Source of the DNA: an uncultured Flavobacteriales bacterium
GTDB taxonomy: Bacteria > Bacteroidota > Bacteroidia > Palsa-965
DNA: 32,330 nt
Assembly (NCBI GenBank): GCA_903873905.1
Contig: CAIQQJ010000064.1
Span: 1 to 32,330, forward strand
Direction: 5' to 3'
Shown: positions 7,701-26,160 of the stretch, one piece after another
Layout: the number at the start of each line of letters is the position of its first letter
How positions within the stretch are numbered: the first letter of the stretch is position 1
The notes under the pieces: model-generated
The model's database searches: none
Told to the model about the DNA's origin: nothing
Seen by the model: only the letters and a program-made list of their open reading frames with translations
Translations under genes and position numbers: made by a program

Positions 7701-7775
7701 AAATTACAATTTTGAATTTTGAATTATCTAAAACATTTGACATTTTATATTTGACTTTCAACATTAGACTTTAGA
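7701..7775. repeat. Two 7-bp periodic tracts between sigma factor and its partner gene
   Basis: Units AATTACA, ATTTTGA, ATTTTGA, ATTATCT run from 7701 to 7728. After a short break, six heptamers in exact register run from 7734 to 7775: ATTTGAC, ATTTTAT, ATTTGAC, TTTCAAC, ATTAGAC, TTTAGAC. The second tract covers the stop codon of the sigma factor gene (7771-7773). The tracts fill essentially the whole 71-base gap. Confidence 0.8.
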
Positions 7776-8256
7776 CAACCTTTTCAATACTTCCTATGTA
7801 ATTTTTCAAAAATGTCCGCGCACGAAAAATATAAACTTTCACTTGCGGTTCTTTCAATCCACATATCGCACCAATCTCCTCATAAGAATAACCTTCATAA
7901 TCCCGCAGCAACACAACCGATTTTTGAATCTCTGGCAATTTGTTCAAGGCCTCATTCAATATTTCCTTCAAGTCAGAATATTGTCGGTTGTGCGATAATA
8001 CAATCATGGGCGCCTCTTCCATTGTTCCCTGGCGCTTATCCTTTCGCAGATAATCAATCATGGTGCGGTAACCTGTCGTGAACATATACGATTTCGCATT
8101 TGTCGCTTCTGTTTCCGAAACTTTCAACCACATTTTTTCAAATGTATCCTGCACAATATCTTTCGCCTTATCCTTATCCCTGATATTTTTCAGGACAAAA
8201 CGATAAAGACTATCACTATATAAATCGACGCAGCGATTGTATTCTTGAACGGTCAT
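7771..8256 (-). CDS. ECF RNA polymerase sigma factor
   Basis: A 161-residue sigma-70-family protein of the extracytoplasmic-function type, with only regions 2 and 4. Region 2 covers about residues 5-75, with DKAKDIVQDTFEKMW and a -10 recognition segment around YMFTTGYRTMIDYLRK. Region 4 covers about 105-155, with LPEIQKSVVLLRDYEGYSYEEIG and a helix-turn-helix (GLKEPQVKVYIFRAR). It would direct RNA polymerase to a small regulon, probably held in check by the membrane protein encoded downstream. The stop codon lies within a 7-bp tandem tract. No autoregulatory promoter could be identified with confidence. Confidence 0.93.
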   Translation of the reverse strand: MTVQEYNRCVDLYSDSLYRFVLKNIRDKDKAKDIVQDTFEKMWLKVSETEATNAKSYMFTTGYRTMIDYLRKDKRQGTMEEAPMIVLSHNRQYSDLKEILNEALNKLPEIQKSVVLLRDYEGYSYEEIGAICGLKEPQVKVYIFRARTFLKNYIGSIEKVV

Positions 8257-8392
8257 TTTAGGTCAGGTCTGCTCATAAGACGCACAAGGAAGGCCTCTTG
8301 TTACAGCTAAGGTAGAATAAATCGTAAAAAGCTGGTTTTAAGATGTTTTGGAGCGGAAAATCGTATGTATTTTTTAGCACCTCACGCGCTTT

Positions 8393-8452
8393 CCGCTTTT
8401 ACTCCTCTCCCAACAGAAATGTTGGGATCCGGGGTAACCGCTTCAATCACGG
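8393..8452. repeat. Interspersed hairpin repeat, copy B (partial)
   Basis: Shares CCGCTTTTACTCCT and GGGGTAACCGCT with the copy at 20824-20925. It contains the same perfect hairpin: CCCAACA, loop GAAA, TGTTGGG at 8409-8426. The GGGCGTG head and CCCTCACGC tail are missing or degraded. It lies in the 270-base gap upstream of the ECF sigma gene. The sigma-proximal part of that gap (8257-8390) shows no gene. Confidence 0.7.
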
Positions 8453-8487
8453 CTATTTTCGATCTCCTCAGTTTCAAAAAACAAAAA

Positions 8488-8526
8488 AATCTGAAATCTG
8501 AAATTTGAAAATCTGAAATCTGAAAT
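8488..8526. repeat. 7-bp tandem tract (AATCTGA) abutting a stop codon
   Basis: AATCTGA, AATCTGA, AATTTGA, one spare A, then AATCTGA, AATCTGA and a partial unit run into the stop codon of the di-haem peroxidase gene (TGA at 8529-8527, minus strand). The same heptamer occurs in frame inside leuS at 23702-23736. Confidence 0.85.
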
Positions 8527-20823: not shown

Positions 20824-20925
20824 GGGCGTGCCCTCCTACGTCGGTCGGGCTATCCGCTTTTACTCCTCGTCCCAACAGAAATGTTGGGCCTGCGGGGTAA
20901 CCGCTCCTATCCCTCACGCAAAAAA
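20824..20925. repeat. Interspersed hairpin repeat, copy C (best-formed)
   Basis: Has the GGGCGTG head, TCGGGCTATCCGCTTTTACT, the perfect CCCAACA-GAAA-TGTTGGG hairpin at 20871-20888, GGGGTAACCGCT, and the tail ATCCCTCACGCAAAAA. The hairpin portion is nearly identical to copy B (8393-8452), and head and tail match copy A (1596-1762). It lies between the kelch gene and leuS. Confidence 0.8.
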
Positions 20926-20934
20926 TGGAAAATC

Positions 20935-21019
20935 GAATAATGAATATCGAACACCGAATATCGAAGTGGTTTATCGAATTTTACTTCGATATTCTATAAT
21001 CAATATTCGATATTCAAAA
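20935..21019. repeat. Facing 7-bp tracts forming an inverted structure
   Basis: Left arm 20935-20969: GAATAAT, GAATATC, GAACACC, GAATATC, GAAGTGG. Right arm 20985-21019: TTCGATA, TTCTATA, ATCAATA, TTCGATA, TTCAAAA. The arms are reverse-complementary (GAATATCGAA against TTCGATATTC) and could fold into a long imperfect hairpin in the 278-base gap after leuS. Confidence 0.7.
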
Positions 21020-21031
21020 CTGAATTTCAAA

Positions 21032-21071
21032 CCAACTTTCCAACTTTCCAACTTTTCAACCTTTCAACTCC
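21032..21071. repeat. 8-bp tandem tract abutting the leuS stop codon
   Basis: CCAACTTT three times in exact register, then TCAACCTT and TCAACTCC, ending at the first base of the leuS stop codon (TAG, 21073-21071, minus strand). Confidence 0.85.
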
Positions 21072-24000
21072 TAAACAACAATATTCACAATCCGCTTCGC
21101 AACCACAATCACTTTCTTCGGCGCTTTTCCTTCCAGCCATTTCTTCGCTTCTTCACTCGAAAGAATTTCCTTTTCTATTTCCGCATTGGAAAGCAAATTC
21201 GAAACGTTGAAATTAAAACGCACTTTCCCATTCACTTGAACTGGATAATTGAAGGAATCGTCTGTCAAATATTTTTCGTTGATGCTTGGGAAACTTGCTT
21301 TCGTAACACTCTCTTTATTTCCAAGAATTTCCCAAAGCTCTTCCGAAATGTGCGGTGCGAAAGGTGAAAGTGCAATCACCATCGGTTCAAGAATCTCTCG
21401 TTTGTACGATTTCAATTCCATCAAATCATTCACACAAATCATGAACTGACTCACACAAGTGTTGAATGCGTAACGATCAATGTCTTCCTTTATTTTTTTC
21501 AAGGTGCGATGCAACACTTTCAATTCCGCTTCCGATGCAACATCATTCGAAACACGATTATTTCCCGCTTCATCAAAAAACAATCTCCAGAAACGTTTCA
21601 AGAAACCATGAACGCCAGTAATTCCATTGGTGTTCCAAGGTTTGTGTTGTTCCAATGGTCCAAGGAACATTTCGTAAAGACGAAGTGTGTCGGCGCCGTA
21701 TGAATCAACTATTCCAGGAACTACTTTTTGAATTTGCTTATCAAAATATGTATCAGGAGAAATTACATTAAATTTTGACTTGGACATTTTTTCAACTTCT
21801 CGTCCACAAAAATATTTTTCGTCTTCTAAAATAAATCTTGAATCAGAATATTCACTTCTCCATTTTTTAAAGATCTCTGTATCCAATTCGTTAGTCAATT
21901 GATCTATGATACTTACATCAACATTAATTTCATAAGCCATTCCCATGAAAGAAATATTTCCAGCCTTGTTTGGAAATTTGCTTTTCATTTCAGCAGTGAT
22001 CTCGGAAAGCAGCTTCTCTATTTCATGAATATTTTCCAAATATCCAGACTTGTCGCTTTGTTTTATTTTTTCATAAAAAGACTTGCTGACGAAAACTGGA
22101 GGAACATCACTGATGTTCAATAATTCCATTTTAGATTCATCCGAATCGCTGGTGGTAATCGAACTAATAGATAATACGAGTTTGTAAACTTTAGCTGACA
22201 AACCCTGAATCATCCCCTGATTAATCAACTTCTTCGCAGGTTCTTCAATCGGAATTTTTCCAATGTCAAACAAAAATTTTGTCCAGAAACGCACATACAA
22301 CAAATGCCCAGTTGCATGTTCTGCTCCGCCCAAATACAAATCAACATCTCTCCAATAATTCACTGCATCTTTCGAAACAAGTTCCTTCTCGTTTTTCGGA
22401 TCCATGTAACGCAAGTAATACCATGAGCTTCCTGCCCAACCGGGCATGGTGGTGGTTTCTAGAGGGAATTTTTCAGAGGCAGGCTTCGCCTCACCTAAAT
22501 CCTCTCCTGCGGAGAGGACTTTGATATTGGATAACTCGTTCTTTATTTTTTCGACTACGGCTTTTGTATTGTTGGTTACCTCGTTATTGAAAAAGCGAAT
22601 GACTTTGAATCCAAGATTATTCAATACAAAAGTTCTTTGTTCGTCATACTCTTTTTGTTCAGGATCATTGTGATATTCTCCATCCACTTCAATCACAACT
22701 TTCTTTTCAATGCAAATGAAATCAGCAATGAAAACATCAATAGCATGCTGTCTCCTGATTTTAAATCCCGTTTTTCTATCTCGTAATTCCTGCCAAAGAA
22801 TATTTTCTGCTTCGGTTGGATTCTTCCTGTTATCACGAGCAAGAGCTTTCAGTTTTTTCCACAGCTCAGAATTAGCCGTCATATACGGCCGAAGCATTTC
22901 CGCGACAATATTATCTTCATCATCAAAACCTTCTTCACCAACACCATACAAGTGCTGGCTTCCCTCTCCCCCGGAGAGGGACCGAGGGTGAGGCAACTTT
23001 GGACTGTAATTCCAATCCGTTGCCCTAGCCAAAGGAGGTTCACCACTTTCCGTCGGCAAGAATTTATCCACTTGTGGAAGAACAATAGGCAAATCACTTT
23101 CATCCACTGCACAAGGAATTCCATCCTTGTAATAAATCGGAATCGGTTCGCCCCAATAACGTTGTCTTCCAAAAGCTGCATCACGCAAACGGTAATTCAC
23201 TTTTCCTTTTCCAATTCCCAACTTCTCAATTGCTGCAATCGCTTTTTTTACCGCATCTTTTACATCCAATCCATTGAGGAAATCGGAGTTGATGCATTTT
23301 CCTTCTTTCGCATCGTAACTTTCTTTTTCAATGTTGCCTCCTGACACAACTTCCTCGATTGGCAAACCAAAATGTTTTGCAAATGCATAATCGCGTGAAT
23401 CGTGTGCAGGAACAGCCATCACTGCACCTGTTCCGTAACCTGCAAGAACATAATCGCCAATCCAAACAGGCACTTTTTCATTCGTGAAGGGATGAATCAC
23501 ATAGGCGCCCGTAAACACTCCCGTTATTTTTTTTACATCCGCCATGCGTTCACGTTCACTCCTGTTTTTCGCAGCGGTAACGTAAGCATCAACAGCAACT
23601 TTATTTTCACCAGTGGTAATTTGAGAAACCAATTCATGCTCCGGCGCAAGCGTCACGAATGTCACACCGAAAATTGTATCAGGTCGAGTTGTGAATACTT
23701 CAATTTGGAATTTGGAATCTGAAATCTGAAATCTGAGACTTGTTCCTTCCGAACGACCAATCCAATTCCGTTGTGATTCCTTCATGGATTCTGTCCAATC
23801 GAGTGCATCCAAATCATTCAGCAAACGATCTGCATAAGAAGTAATTCGCATACTCCATTGCGGCATGCGTTTTCTTTCCACAGGATAACCACCGCGTTCT
23901 GAAACGCCATCTTTCACTTCATCATTCGCCAACACAGTTCCCATGGCAGGACACCAATTCACCCAAGCTTCACCGAGATAAGCCAAACGGAAATTCATCA

Positions 24001-24628
24001 ACACATCCGATTTTTCTTTCTCGGAAAAATTTTTCCATTGAGCAGGAGTGAAAGTTTTCAAATCATTCTCATTTCCACTTGTCTGCTCGAGCGTAGTCGA
24101 GAACCGTTCATCATTTCCAGTAAAACCTTCCGTTTCAAAAATCGAAATCAAGGAATCAATTGATTCCGCCTTTTTCGTTTTGTTATTGTACCACGATTTG
24201 AAAATCTGTAGGAAAATCCATTGTGTCCATTGGTAATAATTCGGATCACTCGTTCGCACTTCACGGTCCCAATCGAAAGAGAAACCGATCTTATTCATTT
24301 GCTCAATGTAACGGGCAATATTTTCTTTCGTTGTTTTTTCAGGATGTTGTCCTGTTTGAATGGCATATTGTTCCGCAGGCAAACCGAAAGAATCGAATCC
24401 CATCGGATGCAAGACATTGAATCCATCCAAACGTTTATAACGCGCAACAATATCGGAAGCGATGTAACCCAACGGATGACCCACATGCAATCCAGCTCCA
24501 CTTGGATACGGAAACATGTCGAGCACATAATATTTCGGACGATCGGAATGGTTTTCCACGTGATACGTATTCCGGTCTTTCCAGACTTTCTGCCACTTCT
24601 TCTCGATATCGCTGAATTTGTATTCCAT
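21071..24628 (-). CDS. leuS: Leucyl-tRNA synthetase carrying an in-frame DUF559 endonuclease insertion
   Basis: Class I synthetase that charges tRNA-Leu. The start at 24628 (MEYKFSDIEKKWQ) fits the family; the 66 codons upstream come from non-coding repeat DNA. At 1185 residues it is about 250 longer than usual for Bacteroidota. Core motifs are intact: HVGH (48-51), editing-domain TTRPDTIFG (313-321), QRYWGEPIP (489-497), ETTTMPGWAGSSWYY (724-738), and KMSKS (947-951). Insertions: a palindromic-repeat segment at ~174-186, a 7-bp-tract segment at ~297-309, a DUF559 domain at ~545-714, an expanded region at ~811-905 just before the catalytic KMSKS, and an extra ~15 residues at ~961-975. The frame is open throughout, so the insertions are presumably tolerated as extra loops. 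No second leuS lies in the window. Confidence 0.92.
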   Translation of the reverse strand: MEYKFSDIEKKWQKVWKDRNTYHVENHSDRPKYYVLDMFPYPSGAGLHVGHPLGYIASDIVARYKRLDGFNVLHPMGFDSFGLPAEQYAIQTGQHPEKTTKENIARYIEQMNKIGFSFDWDREVRTSDPNYYQWTQWIFLQIFKSWYNNKTKKAESIDSLISIFETEGFTGNDERFSTTLEQTSGNENDLKTFTPAQWKNFSEKEKSDVLMNFRLAYLGEAWVNWCPAMGTVLANDEVKDGVSERGGYPVERKRMPQWSMRITSYADRLLNDLDALDWTESMKESQRNWIGRSEGTSLRFQISDSKFQIEVFTTRPDTIFGVTFVTLAPEHELVSQITTGENKVAVDAYVTAAKNRSERERMADVKKITGVFTGAYVIHPFTNEKVPVWIGDYVLAGYGTGAVMAVPAHDSRDYAFAKHFGLPIEEVVSGGNIEKESYDAKEGKCINSDFLNGLDVKDAVKKAIAAIEKLGIGKGKVNYRLRDAAFGRQRYWGEPIPIYYKDGIPCAVDESDLPIVLPQVDKFLPTESGEPPLARATDWNYSPKLPHPRSLSGGEGSQHLYGVGEEGFDDEDNIVAEMLRPYMTANSELWKKLKALARDNRKNPTEAENILWQELRDRKTGFKIRRQHAIDVFIADFICIEKKVVIEVDGEYHNDPEQKEYDEQRTFVLNNLGFKVIRFFNNEVTNNTKAVVEKIKNELSNIKVLSAGEDLGEAKPASEKFPLETTTMPGWAGSSWYYLRYMDPKNEKELVSKDAVNYWRDVDLYLGGAEHATGHLLYVRFWTKFLFDIGKIPIEEPAKKLINQGMIQGLSAKVYKLVLSISSITTSDSDESKMELLNISDVPPVFVSKSFYEKIKQSDKSGYLENIHEIEKLLSEITAEMKSKFPNKAGNISFMGMAYEINVDVSIIDQLTNELDTEIFKKWRSEYSDSRFILEDEKYFCGREVEKMSKSKFNVISPDTYFDKQIQKVVPGIVDSYGADTLRLYEMFLGPLEQHKPWNTNGITGVHGFLKRFWRLFFDEAGNNRVSNDVASEAELKVLHRTLKKIKEDIDRYAFNTCVSQFMICVNDLMELKSYKREILEPMVIALSPFAPHISEELWEILGNKESVTKASFPSINEKYLTDDSFNYPVQVNGKVRFNFNVSNLLSNAEIEKEILSSEEAKKWLEGKAPKKVIVVAKRIVNIVV
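22488..22994 (-). mobile_element. DUF559 endonuclease element with terminal inverted repeats, inside leuS
   Basis: A 507-base element (169 codons, a multiple of three). Its ends are inverted repeats starting GCCTCACC, each followed by its own hairpin: CCTCTCC-TGC-GGAGAGG (22501-22517) and CCCTCTCC-CCC-GGAGAGGG (22962-22980). Between them lies a DUF559 domain (synthetase residues ~583-699): NPTEAENILWQELR, FKIRRQHAID, IADFIC (Asp636), VVIEVDGEYH (Glu647, Asp649), and VIRFFNNEV. This is the Vsr/PD-(D/E)XK-like nuclease fold. It has a possible own start (Met578 or Met583) in the leuS frame. It interrupts the linker between ARATDWNYSPK and FPLETTTMPG. It resembles stand-alone DUF559 genes with similar flanks, so I infer a mobile or formerly mobile unit. 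Confidence 0.75.
23702..23736. repeat. In-frame 7-bp tandem tract inside leuS
   Basis: Five heptamers in exact register: AATTTGG, AATTTGG, AATCTGA, AATCTGA, AATCTGA. Read on the coding strand they give most of the segment LRFQISDSKFQI (residues ~298-309) just before the editing-domain motif TTRPDTIFG. The same heptamer forms the intergenic tract at 8488-8526. Confidence 0.75.
24081..24106. repeat. Palindromic interspersed repeat inside leuS
   Basis: GTCTGCTCGAGCGTAGTCGAG followed by AACCG contains CTCGA and TCGAG arms around a GCGTAG loop. It matches the common Bacteroidota repeat of the type GGTTCTCGACTACGCTCGAG. Read in the leuS frame it encodes RFSTTLEQT, in a linker that is naturally variable in Bacteroidota LeuRS. 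Confidence 0.6.
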
Positions 24629-24778: not shown

Positions 24779-24806
24779 ACTTGCCACTTGCCACTTGCCA
24801 CCTGTC
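24779..24806. repeat. 7-bp tandem tract (ACTTGCC)
   Basis: ACTTGCC three times and then ACCTGTC, in exact register, ending 26 bases before the ftsX start. Translation of this DNA explains the spurious N-terminal extensions of both neighbouring open frames (WQVAS upstream of leuS and PLATCH upstream of ftsX). Confidence 0.85.
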
Positions 24807-24832
24807 ACTTTTTCGTATTTTCGCAAGCAATT

Positions 24833-26022: not shown

Positions 26023-26034
26023 AAATCATTGTCG

Positions 26035-26152
26035 ATTTGTTAATTGCCAATTTTCAATTTTAGTTAATTGTTAAATGGAACTGCGGCAAATTAATACGGA
26101 GTAAATCCCATAAATTTTCAATTGACAATCGGCAATTAACAAATTGGCAATC
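26035..26152. repeat. Facing 7-bp tracts with a 14-bp perfect inverted repeat
   Basis: Left arm, 26039-26066: GTTAATT, GCCAATT, TTCAATT, TTAGTTA. Right arm, 26115-26150: TTTTCAA, TTGACAA, TCGGCAA, TTAACAA, ATTGGCAA. ATTTGTTAATTGCC (26035-26048) and GGCAATTAACAAAT (26131-26144) are exact reverse complements. It fills the 138-base gap between DUF3098 and uppP and could form a large hairpin in the operon transcript. Confidence 0.8.
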
Positions 26153-26160
26153 ATTTCTCC

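Follow-up and report, generated by a model that had tools for sequence, protein, structure and literature searches.

Intergenic arrays with a 7/8-bp period, about half of them arms of inverted repeats, in an uncultured Flavobacteriales bacterium

The intergenic DNA of the uncultured Flavobacteriales genome GCA_903873905.1 (hereafter G000) carries a real class of short tracts with a period of 7 or 8 bp, and about half of these tracts are arms of inverted repeats able to form intergenic hairpins, an arrangement absent from the first reading of the sequence. The window, i.e. the whole stretch of 32,330 bp analysed here (CAIQQJ010000064.1), is one contig of this 3.93-Mb draft genome, of which 860 kb (22%) was sampled, together with 384 kb of the congener G003 and smaller portions of 15 relatives. 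Gene calling relied on a hexamer model that the sample itself served to train, and its stop codons are more certain than its starts. Tract runs were defined as maximal stretches in which s[i]=s[i+p] for a period p and were termed strict at a score of at least 12; the intergenic DNA of the G000 sample amounted to 85 kb.

Strict intergenic runs in the G000 sample numbered 28 at period 7 and 14 at period 8 (42 together), with 3 at period 9, 25 at period 14, 15 at period 16 and many also at 21 and 24. None was found in this intergenic DNA at periods 3–6 and 10–12, nor did order-3 Markov sequence give a single run at periods 7 and 8. Autocorrelation of the intergenic DNA confirmed the period (z values of 20.5, 14.5 and 8.4 for lags 7, 14 and 8, respectively), the lag-7 excess decaying over lags 14 and 21; lag 7 retained z=13.4 once the regions with strict tracts were taken out. 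A lag-7 stretch was present in 84 of 481 intergenic regions (~17%), as compared with 2–6 regions at lags 4–6 and 9–13. An earlier note, made from the letters of the window, had claimed a nearly constant period carried by many different units, and this holds: 46 canonical units were distinguished among 81 arrays. A general feature of Bacteroidota can be rejected, 26 other loci of the phylum being almost empty (just 4 strict period-7 and no period-8 runs in their 41 kb of intergenic DNA); a further 54 loci yielded 3 and none, respectively, in 87 kb. Among the family samples, only G000, G003 and, in a degenerate form, G007 stand out for tracts. In G007, which belongs to another genus of the family (L023, L241–L244), long inverted repeats with CAATTTGAAAATG arms flank leuS on both sides, and hairpins were seen in 35% of the sampled intergenic regions.

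The 14 tract coordinates listed for the window in the earlier note form a mixed set. The best period-7/8 run score per 90 bp was compared with those of 3000 simulated 90-mers (order-2 Markov, from own intergenic DNA). Seven tracts are clearly non-random: the scores at 8488, 21032, 23702 and 24779 were reached by none of the simulated 90-mers, and 7701 (P=0.0003), 20935 and 1766 (P=0.005 each) were also well supported. Two are marginal (1536, P=0.01; 26039, P=0.03) and five lie individually at chance level (P=0.23 for each of 13359, 24691 and 26115, and P=0.08 for both 32096 and 32139). Positions 26039 and 26115, however, represent opposite arms of one 37-nt inverted repeat that spans the whole DUF3098–BacA intergenic region; its left arm (26023–26059, plus strand) begins directly past the stop codon, its right arm (26120–26156, minus strand) ends 4 bp ahead of the next start codon, and the arms are 86% alike (DNA fold z=−3.8). 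Another inverted repeat, built of an ATTCGAT-type heptad, has 31-nt arms, 81% alike, at 20928–20958 (plus strand) and 20985–21015 (minus strand, TRF period 7), with a DNA fold z of −3.9.

The remaining intergenic tracts of the window have no strand assigned. Degenerate heptads at 7708–7777 (AATTTTG ×2.6, then ACATTTG/ATTTGAC/TTAGACT-like units; TRF; best run score of 11, with P=0.0003 for 90 bp) have the start of a 444-aa gene on one side and a sigma-factor stop on the other, the stop being overlapped by the portion 7733–7777; no inverted partner was found for this tract, its partner score being no higher than that of shuffles. The heptad AAATCTG at 8487–8526 (TRF; run score 18) adjoins the stop of a MauG/CCP-like gene (Pfam match; minus strand, 8527), and the octad CCAACTTT at 21032–21069 (TRF; run score 23) adjoins the leuS stop (minus strand, 21071); the unit of the latter belongs to a GTTGRAAR group which is recurrent in G000 and whose pattern is private to that genome. 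The heptad ACTTGCC at 24779–24810 (TRF; run score 17) is placed between the divergent leuS and ftsX-like genes, whose starts the hexamer model sets at 24628 and 24833. Two weak tracts complete the set, a marginal octad ATGTGCTG at 1535–1568 near the purD start (TRF score 38, P=0.01) and a heptad AATGCAC at 1766–1786 (TRF score 33, P=0.005). No Rfam family matched within the window at the gathering score. The window also contains, at 1597–1760, 8360–8460 and 20827–20918, a dispersed element of ~90–170 bp (GGGCGTGYCC...GGTCGGGCTNTCCGCT...CTCACGC) that was encountered in 17 intergenic regions of the G000 sample, with ~16 copies on the plus strand versus 2, though contig orientation should be arbitrary. 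At the pattern used, this element is absent from the G003 sample; it is present 5′ of leuS in G002 (L024).

One strong tract resides within a gene, at 23702–23736 (minus strand) in the coding sequence of leuS, where the coding strand reads TCAGATT (run score 22). Judged by leuS, the closest named relatives are Bacteroidota, mainly metagenome assemblies. Comparison with the protein and DNA of 30 relatives disclosed no change in length, so that an insertion is rejected and the tract must have taken the place of existing codons. At the same LeuS position, different relatives (L024, L025, L034 and L040) display varied heptad-like codon strings (TTCAAGA, TTCAAGG, ATTCAAA), again with unchanged length. 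Separately, LeuS (21071–24628) harbours an inserted DUF559 (Vsr/MTES_1575-like nuclease) domain at about ORF residues 658–765; in G016, G024 and G035 the order of matches places a DUF559-type domain elsewhere in LeuS, at about ORF residue 373, near the site that the heptad tract occupies here. Further gene-internal heptads were found in called coding sequences at L015:4300–4331 (valS), L020:7229–7263, L013:2939–2990 and L071:17930–17959. Coding-sequence arrays have period 7 only, with 6 at a score of at least 13 and none at periods 4, 5, 8, 10, 11 and 13. FKVQ-type peptide repeats arising from such arrays may also occur in other Bacteroidetes.

The tandem character of the tracts, which was the arrangement described in the earlier note, is only part of their organization. 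An inverted partner within the same intergenic region (score at least 26) was found for 37 of 78 tracts, as compared with 8 direct partners and with 3 inverted partners after shuffling. Characteristically, a unit stands at one end of the region and its reverse complement at the other, as in GTTGAAAGGTTGAAAAG ... CTTTCAACCTTTCAAC. A two-armed hairpin score of at least 30 was reached by 32 of 82 tract regions versus 13 of 278 tract-free regions; the outer ends of the hairpins are often ~10 bp or less away from a neighbouring gene, and the two arms are separated by a spacer of 33 bp (median). RNA folding z was below −3 in 30% of tract regions and in 13% of controls. The two arms are 92% identical (median, a value inflated by the choice of arms according to mutual similarity), as compared with 75.5% between neighbouring units inside an arm, a difference seen in 27 of 32 cases. 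At several loci, ruvB and valS among them, an irregular order of units in one arm is mirrored in the other. Such mirroring is not what independent expansion of two arrays would produce, while either arm-to-arm copying or selection for pairing would yield it. Mismatches between arms are evenly divided between G.U and A.C (52:53), as predicted for a process acting on DNA, in a test that has little power since comparison hairpins are also unbiased (77:68).

The units are both recurrent and subject to replacement. In the G000 sample, 53 period-7 region-units fall into 32 kinds where 49.7 would be expected, and 23 period-8 region-units into 14 kinds where 22.7 would be expected; some units therefore recur at many sites and are not fully free to vary. 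The octad GTTGAAAR has 68 overlapping matches in G000 (the backward pattern is of no use as a control, the reversed unit being a rotation of the unit itself). Among 196 other genomes of the class, one had a single match, and G002, G003, G006 and G007 had none. Units that are recurrent yet private imply more than local slippage starting from random seeds. Turnover becomes apparent when the same gene borders are compared. Read by eye, the DNA past valS has GTTGAAAN arms in G000, GGTATTA-type arms in G003 and an apparent ordinary terminator in G005; at the site of the G000 octad hairpin, G002 (L115) carries a longer direct repeat with a GCTCAGYATGACAAACACTTAG-like unit. Reading by eye likewise indicates CAGTTTT-type arms 3′ of rny in G003, a GGAATGC-type inverted repeat 3′ of leuS in the same genome, and an AGACATG-type inverted repeat 3′ of ruvB in G005 in place of the AATTTTG of G000. 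Among the 3′ flanks of G003 that are orthologous to paired tracts of G000, a hairpin scoring at least 40 was present at 5 of 12 usable sites versus 0 of 14 controls (p=0.012; small numbers), and period-7/8 windows at 7 of 12 versus 3 of 14 (p=0.11). The genes of G003 are no more than 26 bp apart at another six tract sites. The proposal of the earlier note that the mechanism is tied to length and not to sequence is accordingly upheld in part: it fits, because congeners have different units at the same gene borders, but the recurrence of units within G000 speaks against complete indifference to sequence.

With respect to genes, 20 tract ends in G000 are 5 bp or less from a stop codon, as compared with 8.3 expected for random placement of the tracts within the same regions (20 was reached in 0 of 2000 placements). 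No excess was found at starts in G000 (7 versus 6.2 expected), and enrichment at stops was not seen among the 18 tracts of the congener G003, the effect being shown for G000 only. The association with stop codons put forward in the earlier note therefore stands for G000 and for 8487–8526, 21032–21069 and 7733–7777 in the window, but not for every strong tract: that at 23702 is inside leuS, that at 24779 lies between two start codons and the weaker one at 1536 is near a start. The tracts also have a polarity. Read inward from the nearer gene, 57 are G-rich versus 18 C-rich, in the same way for paired and single tracts; the background G/(G+C) of 0.61 at starts explains part of this polarity, whereas that of 0.52 at stops does not. 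Within genes, the clear heptad arrays, such as those of leuS and valS, show the C-type on the coding strand; among intergenic tracts, it is this orientation that contains fewer stop codons. A role of the inward strand as a stop-codon backstop is rejected, stops being present in 1.87 frames versus 1.76 in shuffled tracts, i.e. about equally.

Our best reading, to which we would lend about half of our belief, is that the tracts are lineage-private arrays generated by slippage of 7–8 nt, mirrored by snap-back template switching, tolerated in the apparent absence of SbcCD and possibly serving as gene-end hairpins. Replication slippage by 7–8 nt would first enlarge a seed into an array. Loops of 7–8 nt are expected to evade mismatch repair, and loss of that repair as the cause is rejected, as MutS is present. 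The nascent strand would then snap back onto its own array, or a hairpin would serve as template, giving a reversed copy and keeping the arms alike even where the units inside an arm differ. Slippage together with arm-to-arm copying would spread new unit variants, such that units are replaced from one species to the next and only period and hairpin stay. Some units would also reach other gene borders of the same genome. The arrays would end up where they are least harmful, i.e. past stops, in intergenic DNA and, within genes, mainly in the orientation with fewer stops; some may replace ordinary terminators. Template switching between the arms of inverted repeats is, as described in PMC8604942 and PMC7202029, a known process that makes arms alike. 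The restriction to periods 7 and 8, the inverted partners, the likeness of the arms and the different units of orthologous hairpins all speak for this reading.

The hairpins may persist because the family apparently lacks the hairpin nuclease SbcCD. No match to SbcD was obtained in G000 or nine relatives, and G011 gave a weak fragment below the cut-off; the same search was positive in 13 of 14 control genomes. No SbcC match exceeded the cut-off either, which is weak evidence alone, since the model passes it in only one control genome. In E. coli, SbcCD is described as acting at palindromes (PMC3315005, PMC4245961), and its absence is thus a plausible permissive condition. This absence is, however, family-wide and includes tract-poor relatives, so that it cannot explain why only some members are tract-rich. 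Nor does slippage supply the spreading route needed to bring one unit to many sites, and the G-inward polarity is not predicted by this reading.

Alternatively, the tracts may be selected gene-end structures, a fairly doubtful but credible explanation in which an RNA hairpin stops transcription or protects the 3′ end of the mRNA in place of a canonical terminator; any folding sequence would suffice and the units would drift. Canonical terminators are indeed few: tract regions have one at 6 of 75 stop ends, as compared with 58 of 269 elsewhere (p=0.007), and between convergent genes the corresponding counts are 2 of 28 and 21 of 68 (p=0.017). The enrichment of tract ends at stops, the low RNA folding z of many tract regions, the hairpins at orthologous 3′ ends and the apparent canonical terminator of G005 past valS, where G000 has an array, point in the same direction. 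The scarcity of terminators is equally compatible with selection and with our preferred reading, and fits either replacement by arrays or destruction through them. A pure terminator role is opposed by the similar frequency of tracts in divergent (21 of 80) and convergent (14 of 62) regions. The arrays do not require a T-run, and a GC-rich stem followed by a T run past the stop, as in intrinsic terminators, was seen at just 2 of the 30 stop ends whose region has both tract and hairpin. Moreover, arm mismatches have no excess of G.U, folding alone does not call for a period of 7–8 bp, and arrays are found within genes too.

It is unlikely that the tracts descend from a mobile or dispersed element of the REP or MITE kind, inserted as whole hairpins at gene borders and decaying thereafter. 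Two-armed hairpins and units that recur at many sites while being private to a species would suit such an origin, and the separate GGGCGTG...CTCACGC element is found in 7 tract regions versus 2.6 expected. Yet arm and spacer sequences vary from site to site, an arm finding a match in just 7% of the other tract regions (1.4% for the remaining intergenic regions) where copies of an element would share their sequence, although some units do recur; the diversity of canonical units argues likewise, and neither conserved ends nor target duplications were noticed in an unsystematic look. Arrays of binding sites for a protein or RNA with a 7–8-nt register are very improbable. The idea was put forward for TAACTGA repeats and cold-shock proteins, and single-strand binders with a 7-nt register have been discussed (PMC4679880); a constant period and a position at gene edges would agree with it, but the units vary so widely between and within species that no sequence-specific binder fits, while a sequence-blind binder would attach everywhere. 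Chance or an assembly artefact, to which the five listed tracts at chance level might point, has next to no standing and is already refuted for the class as a whole, given that Markov controls, other periods and the 26 and 54 comparison loci yield essentially nothing and that the arrays, with a median of 30 bp, are covered by a single read.

Among published repeats, GGGAATC of Xanthomonas comes closest. The GGGAATC and GGGGA(C/T)T heptamers of Xanthomonas and Nostoc are mostly intergenic and near genes, and Xanthomonas has 70–75 convergent inverted pairs per genome, with the G strand inward, mostly between the same genes in two species and variable in length and sequence (Rehm et al. 2015, PMC4692102). 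The tracts of G000 share the convergent pairs near genes (37 of 78) and the inward G strand (57:18). They differ in that Xanthomonas and Nostoc have one fixed G-rich unit per genome, capable of forming G-quadruplexes, whereas here units are many, include 8-bp ones and are replaced by others at the same border in congeners; a G-quadruplex explanation is rejected, four GGG runs being present in no more than 2 of 79 tracts. The TAACTGA direct repeats of Beggiatoaceae, some Cyanobacteria and Bacteroidetes (MacGregor 2015, PMC4679880) are also intergenic heptamer arrays at gene edges, with other heptamers beside them in Gramella and Elizabethkingia; they have, however, one fixed unit, stand mostly before starts and include only one indirect repeat in the main genome, whereas in G000 no recurrent canonical unit corresponds to TAACTGA, inverted pairs are common, units vary and stops rather than starts are enriched. 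We therefore file the tracts with the heptamer-repeat kind, as a variant, and not with the G-quadruplex, TAACTGA or terminator families.

The resemblance to the heptanucleotide repeats of cyanobacteria (STRR) proposed in the earlier note is supported in a broad sense, the tracts being tandem arrays over-represented in intergenic DNA with 28 period-7 runs and none at 3–6 and 10–12; the 14 period-8 runs go beyond a strict heptanucleotide definition. To our knowledge, neither an inverted-pair architecture nor unit turnover at orthologous sites is known for cyanobacterial STRR. Three different heptanucleotide STRR are cited for Calothrix in PMC4692102. A slippage idea based on length has already been published: among prokaryotic simple sequence repeats of 5–11 nt, heptanucleotides are the most abundant, and polymerase slippage tied to 7 nt has been suggested (Mrazek et al. 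2007, as cited in PMC4679880 and PMC4692102). That work concerns tandem repeats only, and the inverted pairing found here is absent from the two descriptions that cite it. Quasipalindromes, as described in PMC7202029 and PMC8604942, are likewise imperfect inverted repeats, in which template switching homogenizes the arms, but in these descriptions they are not built from 7–8-bp tandem units across a genome.

It is tempting to speculate, as a tentative but genuine possibility, that the element is free of any particular sequence, a border keeping only an architecture of two inward arms with a 7–8-bp rhythm while the unit is replaced between species through coupled slippage and arm-to-arm copying; on this view, the heptamer pairs of xanthomonads would represent one instance of a general process in which no G-quadruplex is needed. 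Heptanucleotide repeats have so far been known from scattered bacteria, with one or few fixed units each and an unsettled role, and the paired ones of xanthomonads have been studied as G-quadruplexes. Here, the 7–8-bp rhythm, the convergent pairs and the inward G strand occur with dozens of units, mostly not capable of forming quadruplexes, so that architecture is separable from sequence; hairpins of other sequence at the same gene borders in a congener part the two as well. Such arrays can, moreover, occupy essential genes, for instance leuS and valS. The question of why the period should be seven thereby becomes testable, as coupled evolution of the arms, dependence on SbcCD and changes of length in steps of whole units are predicted.
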